Source: Gloeopeniophorella convolvens (lineage: Eukaryota > Basidiomycota > Agaricomycetes > Russulales). Taken from it: a stretch of DNA of 64,000 bases. Each line of letters starts with the position of its first letter. The stretch's first letter is position 1. The translations under genes were made by a program, and so were the position numbers. The stretch covers positions 1 through 64,000 of the forward strand of contig WTXD01000098.1 in the NCBI GenBank assembly GCA_022496205.1. Reading direction: 5' to 3'. A model generated the notes under the pieces. It saw only the letters and a program-made list of their open reading frames with translations, was not told where the DNA came from and did not search any database. Below, in pieces: positions 5,012-58,062 of this stretch.

Positions 5012-5490
5012 TGTTGAGACAGACAGTGTCCTGGCGGCTCTGATTAGATTAGATATGGACCTAATGATCAAGGACTATCTTATCTTGTGTACATAATGTT
5101 CTAGACTTAAGGCTGTGCTCAGCCCCACATTCGTTTCCATGTTCTGGACTCTTCTAGGGCATTCCATGACCCACCTTGTACTCCAGTACCCACTCTTACT
5201 CCGTTTCATGTGGGTCTCCTAGGCTTTCTAAGCAGTGTTTATCACATGCTATCTGTCGATCCTTACAGTATATAAGGACTCCTTTCTTCGCCTTTGTAGC
5301 CTCAGTCTTTTGACCTTCCTTGACTGAGGCAAGTACACTTACGCTCTTTTCTACTTTCTTATACTTACACTACCTTACAGCGTCACTCTGTGTCCTTCAG
5401 GTATTTTGTAATCAAGTCTTTTGACCTTCCTTGACTGAGCGTCACTCTGTGTCCTTCAGTTGTCACTCCACCCTCTGCTGCGCTTCAACA
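5012..5490 (+). repeat. Solo copia LTR, family A (479 bp), inserted in LINE RNase H
   Basis: It runs from TGTTGAGAC to CTTCAACA and is flanked by GCCTT on both sides (5007-5011 and 5491-5495). It belongs to the same family as the LTRs at 31135, 48897 and 56632 but is more diverged. It contains the exon-like block E1 at 5304-5328, an intron-like GCAAGT...ACAG segment at 5329-5380 (52 nt), E2 at 5381-5400, and the joined copy E1'-E2' at 5415-5459. E1 and E1' share the family-variant CCTTGACTGAG. Confidence 0.93.
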
Positions 5491-30438: not shown

Positions 30439-31423
30439 CCAAAATGCGAAGGGAGAAGAACTTTGCGTTTGCCATCTATTCTATGAACCAAACCACATTG
30501 AAATTGCGAGAGATACTGTGTTTATATTGCCTTTCGTCCCATCGCACCATGCTAAACCGGAACATCGATGTTGACATCAAGGATTGTGAAAATTGAGCTA
30601 TTCCTGCAAAGCTGGGACTTAGAGCACATCCACGAAGCTTTGGGTGCTTGTCTGAGCATCTCTGTCACGAATCTTCGCTGATGGATTGAGCAGTATATAT
30701 AGGAGGAATGATTTGTTGGCTCCCAGTCGGGTGCTGTGCACAAGTTCTGCAGGTCCGAAAGTGTGCTGAGCATGCACACCTAGAGCACACGTGCTAGAAC
30801 TTGAGGATGCTACACAGGTACGTGTCGCCAGTGTGTCCTGTGCCCTGCAAGACGTTGTAGATGTGCTATCAACGTGGTGCTGTTGCTGATGGCACCGCAG
30901 GCTATGCCATCGCTGATGAGTGCCGCTATTGCTGACATCTTACATCGAGGTGTGCCACATGCTGTGGGGTGTACTGTGACTGCCAGTGTACTGCGCGCCC
31001 CTGCAGGACATTGACGGCTCTCACAAGATCGCTGTTGCTGATGTGCAGCAGGGCATGTCATTGGTGGCAGCATGTTCAATTGCGGGATCTGTCACAACTC
31101 ACCAATGGCCTCACATGCCCTACAACATGCCCCATGTTGAGACGGACAGTGTCCTGGCAGCTCTGATTAGATTAGATATGGACCTAATGATCAAGGACTA
31201 TCTTATCTTGTGTACATAATGTTCTAGACTTAAGGCTGTGTTCAGCCCCACATTCGCTTCCATGATTCTGGACTATTCTAGGGCATTCCATGACCCACCT
31301 TGTACTCTGGTACCCACTCTTACTCCGTTTCATGTGGGTCTCCTAGGCTTTCTAAGCAGTGTTTATCACATGCTATCTGTCGCTCCTTACTGTATATAAG
31401 GACCTCTTTCTTCGCCTTTGTAG

Positions 31424-31453
31424 CCTCAGTCTTTTGACCTTCTCTGACTGAGG
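31424..31453 (+). other. Conserved hairpin at the predicted transcript 5' end
   Basis: CCTCAGTC and GACTGAGG form a perfect 8-bp stem with a 14-nt loop, and the 3' arm ends on the first base of the GC-type splice site. The stem is identical in all five LTRs of the window, while the loop differs between families. Confidence 0.6.
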
Positions 31454-31506
31454 CAAGTACACTACCGCTCTTTTCACTTCTACCTTATGCTTACCTTACC
31501 TTGTAG
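31453..31506 (+). other. Candidate GC-AG intron in the LTR R/U5 region (54 nt)
   Basis: It starts GCAAGT, the consensus for GC-type 5' splice sites, has a pyrimidine-rich 3' half with TTAC branch-like motifs, and ends TTGTAG. Its length is typical of basidiomycete introns. The sequence on its two sides occurs joined, without the 54 nt, at 31545-31589. Splicing itself is inferred. Confidence 0.55.
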
Positions 31507-31620
31507 CGTCACTCTGTGTCCTTCAGGTATTGCACTAATGTATCAGTCTTTTGACCTTCTCTGACTGAGCATCACTCTGTGTCCTTCAGTTGTCACTCCA
31601 CCCTCTGCTGCGCTTCAACA

Positions 31621-32511
31621 GGTTATGGGCCCTGCCTAAATACCTTGCACTGAAGATCTACACAAGCTCCCTTGACAAGACACCGCATCTTTACTCCCAA
31701 CAAGGCGAGCCTCTGTTCCATTCTATCCTTCCTCCTTCCCTGGCTAGGCCATGGGATTGTGCATAGCACTTGGGTCTTAACCAGACTTCCTGCAAGCTGT
31801 GGGACGGAGCGTGGCGACGCAGAACCACAGTGAGCTTCCTCACCCCACAGTGCGCACTACAGTACTTTTACTATACACTACTGTACATGTTCCTGGGGAA
31901 ACCCACCAGCGTGCAGTAGTCAGCCGCTGTGTGTGGAGCCAGAAGAGCAGCCCTTATGGCCCCTTAGGCAAGCAGGGGGGAAGCCCCTTGTGATGCTTTT
32001 TGGCTAGTGAACGGTTGGCCGTCTGCCCTTAAGTGGGAGCGGTTTTGGTGTATAACAAGGCGGGGAACACCACCCTAGACCTTGCGCCTGTTACAACTGC
32101 GCTACCCTACTATACAGTAGTACATAGGGATGAGCCTCACAGTTCACCTCTGCATGAACCAGCGTCAGTACCAGGTCTTCTGACCATTGGGAAACAGAGC
32201 ACCATGCATGTAGAACAAATTGGACCCCCTTATCCACTGGCCCAATCATCTAGGCCTTAAGTAGAGACTCCCCCAAAGCGCATAGATGGGCTATTTCAAT
32301 GCCGTCTCTATGGTCGTGCCGGGTGGCTCATCTCTACAGTGGATTACTTTACAAAGTACATTACAAAGTCGCACATCATGGGCTCTGAGGACTGGTCATT
32401 ATGATCAGAGGTACAAGTTCACATGCGCAGGAGGCATCTACATCTTCTCTGCACCAGCACTGTTGCTGACTGCTTCTCGGCAACAGACCTTACCATCGCA
32501 CTTTTGACAAC
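31621..32511 (+). other. Copia leader with candidate primer binding site
   Basis: The 890-bp untranslated leader begins GGTTATGGGCCCTGCC directly after the LTR, the position of a primer binding site; I could not match it to a specific tRNA. ORFs here are short and have no motifs. Confidence 0.5.
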
Positions 32512-48896: not shown

Positions 48897-49382
48897 TGTT
48901 GAGATGGACAGTGTCCTGGTGGCTCTGATTAGATTAGATATGGACCTAATGATCAAGGACTATCTTATCTTGTGTACATAATGTTCTAGACTTAAGGCTG
49001 TGTTCAGCCCCACATTCGTTTCCATGATTCTGGACTATTCTAGGGCATTCTATGACCCACCTTGTACTCCGGTACCCACTCTTACTCCGTTTCATGTGGG
49101 TCTCCTAGGCTTTCTAAGCAGTGTTTATCACATGCTATCTGTCGCTCCTTACTGTATATAAGGACCTCTTTCTTCGCCTTTATAGCCTCAGTCTTTTGAC
49201 CTTCTCTGACTGAGGCAAGTACACTACCACTCTTTTCACTTCTACCTTATGCTTACCTTACCTTGTAGCGTCACTCTGTGTCCTTCAGGTATTGCACTAA
49301 TGTATAAGTCTTTTGACCTTCTCTGACTGAGCGTCACTCTGTGTCCTTCAGTTGTCACTCCACCCTCTGCTGCGCTTCAACA
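48897..49382 (+). repeat. 3' LTR of the copia element (family A)
   Basis: 486 bp, differing from the 5' LTR at about 10 sites. E1 49190-49214, intron-like segment 49215-49268, E2 49269-49288, joined copy E1'-E2' 49307-49351; here E2 and E2' are identical. Confidence 0.97.
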
Positions 49383-49844
49383 CCCCACTGCGAGACACAC
49401 CGCCAGTGCACACCATGGTAGTCTCTTCATCGCACCGCAAGTCGGACTTGCTGGAGATGTGCAAGATAACCAGTGACTGAGTGGGCCAAGCAGAGAGTTC
49501 CGGGTCCGCCGAGTCTGATTCGCAGGCGAGTGCGTGAGCGAGGGTTCTTCAACTCAGTCCTCTGTCCAGTTGCTCAGTGTGCCACTTACCAACGGTGCCA
49601 ATAAGGACTCTGGCTCGACTCGTGCACTGTCGATCACGTTGGGTGGAAGTTGACGCTCACTGTAGCCCACTAGCCACACTTTGGGCCAGCTGGACTGTGA
49701 TTCGGCTTGCTCTTACACAATATCACTCTTTTTTCGAACTCTAATGCATGCATGTACTCTCAGACCTTATAGCTTCATCATATATACACTTCTAGGGTTG
49801 AATCTGTGATGCAGAGTGTGCAGAACTTTGGTTTTCGATTTTTC

Positions 49845-56631: not shown

Positions 56632-57117
56632 TGTTGAGATGGACAGTGTCCTGGCGGCTCTGATTAGATTAGATATGGACCTAATGATCAAGGACTATCT
56701 TATCTTGTGTACATAATGTTCTAGACTTAAGGCTGTGCTCAGCCCCACATTCGTTTCCATGATTCTGGACTATTCTAGGGCATTCTATGACCCACCTTGT
56801 ACTCCGGTACCCACTCTTACTCCGTTTCATGTGGGTCTCCTAGGCTTTCTAAGCAGTGTTTATCACATGCTATCTGTCGCTCCTTACTGTATATAAGGAC
56901 CTCTTTCTTCGCCTCTATAGCCTCAGTCTTTTGACCTTCTCTGACTGAGGCAAGTACACTACCGCTCCTTTCACTTCTACCTTATGCTTACCCTACCTTG
57001 TAGCGTCACTCTGTGTCCTTCAGGTATTGCACTAATGTATAAGTCTTTTGACCTTCTCTGACTGAGCGTCACTCTGTGTCCTTCAGTTGTCACTCCACCC
57101 TCTGCTGCGCTTCAACA
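56632..57117 (+). repeat. Solo copia LTR, family A (486 bp)
   Basis: TGTTGA...TCAACA with target duplication GCGGG on both sides (56627-56631 and 57118-57122). It is the same length as the LTRs of the complete element and carries the same exon-intron-exon plus joined-exon layout. Confidence 0.95.
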
Positions 57118-57406
57118 GCGGGATGCCGTGCCACCGCTAGCAGGGCCACCTTGACACTGGTGTGCGAGTGCGACAAGTGGAAGAGCAGCTTGCGAGGTCC
57201 CTATGCGCGCGCAGGCCAGAGAGTACGCCGGGGGATTGGTGAGGACAGGAAGGTAGATTCACATTGTAGTCGCGGTAGATGGTGTATGTATGATCGAATG
57301 GACCAACTCACCTTGACGTCTCAATTTAGTACGCACCGAGTCCCATGTGTTCGTATATGCCAACATCCTCGTCTTGCTCACCGTCTACACCCTCCTCTCC
57401 TGACTT

Positions 57407-57536: not shown

Positions 57537-58062
57537 TGTTGAGACAGACAGGACTCAGGACAGGAAGGACGTCTCTGATTAGATTAGATAAGGGACTCGG
57601 TGATCTGCGAGCTATCTGATCTACAATGTATATGACATCATTATATTCTAGCCCCTAAGGCTGTACCTACTTTCGTTCCTGTTCTAGATTCTTCCGGGCT
57701 CTTCCATGACCCACATGCAGTTCCGGGTTGACCCACCTGCAGTTCCGGTCGACCCACTTTAGTTCCGCTTTCACATGGGTCTCTGGTTATCACATGTTGG
57801 TGTTGTTTATCACATGCAAACCACACTCCTTTTGTGTATATAAAGGACACTGTTTTCGCCCTTGTAGCCTCAGTCTGTTGACTTCACTGACTGAGGCAAG
57901 TACTTTACTTCCGGAACTTCCGGACTTGCACTTACCTAGTTACTTTAGCTTTGCTCTTGCTTGCCTAGGTATTGCGCCAATGACATTTAGTCTGTTGACT
58001 TCACTGACTGAGCTTTGCTCTTGCTTGCCTAGTTGGCACCCTGTTTCTGCTGCGCTTCAACA
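57537..58062 (+). repeat. Solo copia LTR, family B (526 bp)
   Basis: TGTTGAGACAG...CTTCAACA with target duplication CCTCG on both sides (57532-57536 and 58063-58067). It shares ends, the TGATTAGATTAGATA block and the hairpin with family A but is otherwise diverged. E1 57872-57895, intron-like GCAAGT...TTAG 57896-57948 (53 nt), E2 CTTTGCTCTTGCTTGCCTAG 57949-57968, joined copy E1' 57989-58012 with E2' 58013-58032; both pairs are identical. Confidence 0.93.

Follow-up and report, generated by a model that had tools for sequence, protein, structure and literature searches.

Penelope-like elements are retroelements that retain introns. They are not LTR elements of the copia kind, and we know of no landing site in them such as the one proposed below. 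First-strand transfer errors in retroviruses and Ty1 give extra bases at the RNA 5′ end, whereas the one-base scar of the family considered here is internal to the LTR and precedes a second copy of the exons. In foamy viruses only the splice donor lies in R and the acceptors are outside the LTR; the present family, in contrast, has whole putative introns inside the LTR together with a landing copy. The foamy virus donor within the R region is described in PMC3185757, and non-templated addition by MMLV-type enzymes in PMC6885630. Among the open PMC papers searched, none turned up that describes an LTR, of the copia kind or another, holding introns beside a pre-spliced copy of its own exons, and we regard the novelty of the layout as provisional.

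The DNA analysed here (the window) is a stretch of 64,000 nucleotides from the basidiomycete Gloeopeniophorella convolvens (assembly GCA_022496205.1, contig WTXD01000098.1, positions 1 to 64,000). Its features are collected in Table 1. The initial annotation had described an LTR in which a first exon (E1), an intron (I1), a second exon (E2) and an 18-nt spacer are followed by E1 joined directly to E2. Its coordinates held on direct reading and in a repeat search, which returned direct repeats of 27 and 22 nt lying 117 and 63 nt apart, respectively. The joined copy had also been called precise: the 54 nt of I1 are indeed absent, but the copy is not exact throughout, matching E1 plus E2 at 44 of 45 nt with a sole mismatch, an A in place of G at CpG position 31571. 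AG ends both the intron and E1, so that the E1/E2 join could equally sit 1 or 2 nt further left; the splice-like placement is one of three.

Table 1. Features of the element and of related LTRs in the window (positions in the window)
Feature	Position	Strand	Basis or remark
5′ LTR, TGTTGA...TCAACA, 486 bp	31135..31620	+	Boundaries are the limits of matches to other copies
TATATAA box, 35 nt upstream of predicted RNA start	31393..31399	+	Sequence
E1, 25 nt; A31428 is the predicted RNA start	31428..31452	+	Second copy begins at the same A, behind the scar base
I1, putative GC-AG intron, 54 nt, GCAAGT...TTGTAG	31453..31506	+	Conserved splice signals, diverged remainder
E2, 20 nt, pyrimidine-rich, CAG end	31507..31526	+	YAG end in 129/129
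Spacer, 18 nt	31527..31544		Between E2 and joined copy
I2, proposed second intron, 63 nt, GTATTG...CTTCAG, encloses joined copy	31527..31589	+	Putative; GTATT and YAG, 129/129 each
J, scar base preceding second E1	31544	+	Variability highest of all columns in subfamilies A and D, but not in F
E1′E2′, joined (pre-spliced) copy, proposed landing site of first-strand transfer	31545..31589	+	
E3/U5, LTR end	31590..31620	+	
Primer binding site (PBS) GGTTATGGGCCCTG, 14 bases	31621..31634	+	Identical behind the 5′ LTR in 24 pairs
Copia gag-integrase reading frame, 849 aa	32470..35019	+	ORF; Pfam domains
3′ LTR, same insertion, same layout, scar base A	48897..49382	+	PPT-like purine run on left; target duplication CCCCA
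Solo LTR, subfamily F, same layout, scar base A	5012..5490	+	Target duplication GCCTT, by eye
Solo LTR, subfamily A, same layout, scar base A	56632..57117	+	Target duplication GCGGG, by eye
Solo LTR, diverged subfamily D, same layout, scar base T	57537..58062	+	Target duplication CCTCG, by eye

The element shares with Ty1/copia (Pseudoviridae) its TG...CA LTR ends, 5-bp target duplication, copia gag and integrase domains, PBS adjoining the LTR and polypurine tract. The reading frame matches Pfam Retrotran_gag_2, gag_pre-integrs and rve, all above cut-off; the PBS resembles the initiator-tRNA half-molecule site of Drosophila copia; and a purine run like GATCACGGGGGGA precedes 17 of the 18 3′ LTRs shown. 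The target duplication lies at 31130-31134 and 49383-49387, and the two LTRs differ at 10 of 486 positions. Start to start they are 17.8 kb apart, whereas the distance is 5.6-5.8 kb in 18 of 24 LTR pairs read that carry a PBS; the excess of about 12 kb appears to be other DNA inserted inside the element. All four other LTRs found in the window (starting at 5012, 48897, 56632 and 57537) have the layout. A scan of both strands with 10-base seeds recovered these four and two other stretches, of which one is a plus-strand match at 57364 and the other lies on the minus strand; that it missed the LTR at 31135 is probably due to the mismatch at 31571.

A pattern running from the promoter into E1 matched 343 times in the 36.7-Mb assembly (up to 3 mismatches). 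The 178 distinct LTR places that we read came from three sources (the closest matches to the window LTR, the first 100 of the 343 places, and chosen intronless forms and pairs), and the proportions among them are not those of a random sample. The full layout (A form) was present in 129 (81 of subfamily A, 35 of D and 13 of F), E1E2 occurred once with no introns (B form) in 40, I1 was kept with no second copy (C form) in 2, and 7 had no recognised LTR end, being at a contig end, at a fetch end or disrupted. The layout is thus not a product of chance: it sits in the LTR and is the same in 129 of the 178 places and in three subfamilies. Genome-wide, two B-type patterns gave 37 and 9 matches, one on each list (C357:145486 and C38:2509) not adjoining the usual U3 sequence, and a C-type pattern for the A/F type gave 3. 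A single pattern searched against viral contigs had no match. Both flanks were readable in 20 of the 24 PBS-bearing pairs; 8 of these had an exact 5-bp duplication (one being TTTTT) and 12 did not. Among the pairs without one, C370, C376 and C404 share the left flank ACTATGCC. The missing duplications and the shared flank point to element exchange, nested repeats or assembly joins.

The signals expected of an intron are kept in I1. Among the 129 A-form LTRs, 128 have the GCAAGT start, and all have a CTTAC in the later part, which we read as a candidate branch site, and a YAG end; outside these signals I1 diverges (38/59 identity between the window's subfamily A and D LTRs). The spacer begins with GTATT in 129 of 129, and E2 and its copy end in YAG in 129 of 129, followed by E3. 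Joining E2 to E3 would require removal of I2, with the end of E2′ as its 3′ splice site. An E1-E2-E3 order would thus need a second intron, 31527-31589, to be removed besides the one first annotated. The YAG end of E2, which splicing of I2 would need, is present in all three subfamilies, which is in favour of the model. The conservation suggests that both I1 and I2 are spliced.

The two exon copies evolve in concert. Within single LTRs, E1 and E2 differ from their second copies at 29 of 5,772 aligned nt (129 LTRs), and 14 of the 29 differences fall at one CpG at the start of E2. Between the window's subfamily A and D LTRs, identity is 22/25 in E1, 12/21 in E2, 38/59 in I1 and 229/347 in U3, and the two E2 copies of each LTR agree with one another at 19/20 and 20/20, respectively. 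At E2 position 8, 11 LTRs have T in both copies, 69 have C in both and none is mixed (80 subfamily A LTRs with a 20-nt E2 in both copies; Fisher p ~1e-13, relatedness ignored). The CACTT variant of E2 is found in both copies, as are an extra T in the E1 of one LTR and CACCATTG in the E2 of another. A route with one splice only, from E1 to the end of E1′ (117 nt), was rejected, E2 being homogenised too. The LTR at C157:402119 (L129) is of F type with an A-type second E1, whose variant matches the first copy in C2:490388 and C399:66696; the break in this chimera lies at the scar base or in the first half of E1′. Such a chimera would be expected if the cDNA of one RNA landed on another. The variants AGTCTCTTG and CCTTTAG are confined to copy 2, and each is common to two places. 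Unless these are duplicates or parallel changes, they are not predicted by the model and count against it.

The best explanation of these sequences, and in our judgement probably the right one, is that the LTR has leader introns and a pre-spliced landing copy that is rewritten from spliced RNA. Transcription would start at A31428, with two introns just downstream. At the 5′ end of the RNA, I1 and I2 would be spliced out to give E1-E2-E3. Reverse transcriptase, primed at the PBS, would proceed through E3, E2 and E1 as far as the cap, and one base would often be added or miscopied. The cDNA would then move to the 3′ LTR of an RNA that still has its introns and anneal to the contiguous E1′E2′E3, because only that stretch matches in full. 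Extension would copy the spacer, E2, I1, E1 and U3. The new LTR would thereby take I1 and E2 from the unspliced 3′ end, E1′E2′ from the spliced 5′ end, and the extra base as the scar J. In effect, the joined copy would act as a landing pad that preserves the introns across reverse transcription. The initial annotation had suggested that a reverse transcript of spliced element RNA became joined next to the unspliced form. The concerted copies, the scar at the predicted 5′ end and the kept intron signals support a process of this kind, but not as a single past event: the joined copy looks renewed over replication cycles.

The base before the second E1 is variable in subfamilies A and D. In hand counts with exact context it is A at 39, C at 41, T at 31 and G at 4 of 115 subfamily A sites, and C at 39, A at 19 and T at 18 of 76 subfamily D sites; in subfamily F it is almost fixed (12 A, 1 C), which counts against the model. 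J has 1.73 bits in A (193 columns, next 0.96) and 1.51 bits in D (191 columns, next 0.42). It takes 18 parsimony steps in A (54 LTRs; column mean 0.42) and 5 in D (16 LTRs; mean 0.07). Among near-identical pairs, defined by at most 4 other differences and including LTRs of the same insertion, 37 of 82 in A and 25 of 40 in D are discordant at J. Before the first E1, in comparison, 127 of the 129 A-form LTRs have C and 2 have T, and genome-wide the only non-C bases in A/F-type context are 6 Ts. Such variation at J would be expected of a cDNA that terminates where the RNA begins, bears an untemplated or miscopied base there and then resumes synthesis on the second copy. C addition of the MMLV type would predict a sense-strand G, whereas G is the rarest letter here. 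From the position of J we place the RNA start at A31428, 35 nt past the start of the TATA box. Scarring at the second E1 suggests that transfer occurs there, not at the first copy, and in consequence that a spliced 5′ end is what gets copied. A U3 C/T site (LTR alignment column 107, about 31241 in the window) takes 14 parsimony steps in A, far above columns other than J, which perhaps reflects recombination among copies; recombination would inflate parsimony counts of this kind.

If J were set during reverse transcription, both LTRs of one insertion should share it. Among six A/A pairs bracketed by a target duplication, J agrees in four (C24, C257 (TTTTT), C341 and C371) and is discordant in C335 and in the window insertion (C/A). 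This discordance counts against the landing-copy model, and it is what would be seen if J were a post-insertion DNA mutation hot spot unrelated to reverse transcription, an idea compatible with splicing. Nine further A/A pairs have a PBS but no exact target duplication: seven agree at J, C404 differs, and in one C157 pair the base is missing from one LTR. Element exchange, if frequent, may account for the discordant pairs. We consider a hot spot improbable, since J varies both after TAT in A and after ATT in D, which are unlike contexts, takes all four letters in A, sits exactly where the copied block starts, and contrasts with copy 1, where departures were found only from C to T.

A tandem duplication of E1E2, with a 54-nt insert in the first copy and DNA gene conversion between the two, would need no splicing, and exchange between LTRs does look common, to judge by the lack of an exact target duplication in 12 of 20 testable pairs. 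Conversion should sometimes move or delete I1, yet we found no E1E2-spacer form genome-wide with up to 3 mismatches (the single match reads into E3), and the 171 places whose LTR end was recognised include, as judged by length, neither a second copy containing I1 nor a triple form. It would also leave the one-base hot spot and the kept splice signals unaccounted for, and we give it little credence. Slightly less likely still, in our estimate, is a single ancient accident in which spliced cDNA was once joined to the unspliced form and the layout inherited passively. The layout is common to all three subfamilies and the A and D spacers are related, as this would predict, yet passive copies should diverge, whereas these match within an LTR and differ between subfamilies; the absence of mixed LTRs at E2 position 8 disfavours it, and J keeps changing in A and D. 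Finally, a start of the RNA at the second E1 (31545), with the first E1-I1-E2 as mere promoter, would put the scar at something like an ordinary U3/R border, but it is hardly credible, as the first E1 has a TATA box 35 nt ahead of it, none was seen about 30 nt ahead of the second, and the two copies would not stay alike.

The landing-copy model supposes that the 3′ copy escapes splicing. We considered a position-dependent splice switch, in which a hairpin would cause this, and rejected it. GCCTCAGTC and GACTGAGGC can form a 9-bp stem (31423-31454) over the predicted start site and the GC donor, letter-intact in 124 of 129 A-form LTRs, and in short folds of three window LTRs the stem is favoured only with U3 (-17.7 versus -5.2 kcal/mol in A). 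With 20 nt of U3, computed donor accessibility changes in the predicted direction only in D, where it falls from 0.31 to 0.15; it rises from 0.22 to 0.31 in A and from 0.27 to 0.29 in F. In folds of the whole LTR it is 0.22/0.13 in A, 0.12/0.11 in D (12 LTRs each) and 0.22/0.24 in F (2 LTRs) for 3′ versus 5′ context. Neither the accessibilities nor the longer folds support the switch.

Each of the three types (A, F and D) includes intronless B forms. A tree built from the U3 of 98 LTRs shows 18 changes of form label, against a mean of 23.3 and a minimum of 19 in 500 shuffles; the B forms cluster beyond chance. The nearest neighbour listed is an A form for 15 of 25 B forms and a B form for 9, of which 4 are mates in one insertion. 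In C342 and C373, both bracketed by target duplications, the two ends of the insertion are B, so that loss preceded insertion at least there. The C form is seen in another insertion, flanked by the target duplication CCTTC, which has LTRs at C399:61014 and 66696, the 5′ one being of A form and the 3′ one of C form. The excess of B over C among the read places (40 versus 2), despite E2 repeats (22 nt, 63 apart) that lie closer together than the somewhat longer E1 repeats (27 nt, 117 apart), weakly contradicts plain slippage as the only source of loss. The base C is kept before E1 in 39 of the 40 B forms. This disfavours terminal transfer onto the first E1 as their origin, and it also counts against the landing-copy model, which would not predict it if scarring transfer acts there. 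Being almost scar-free, the B forms presumably seldom replicate; they arose repeatedly and look like dead ends. Taken with these forms, we think it likely that the LTR keeps its own introns through reverse transcription by means of a pre-spliced landing pad, renewed in replication with a one-base scar, and that B forms are mis-landings or repeat jumps.

Reverse transcription of spliced RNA should erase introns, and the layout, if the landing-copy model is true, would be a natural way to keep them. The family would then hold a genomic record of first-strand transfers, readable in natural copies, in which the RNA start and the transfer site are marked to the base. It would also make it possible to test how far a retrotransposon depends on its leader introns, as intronless copies are common and show little sign of spread.
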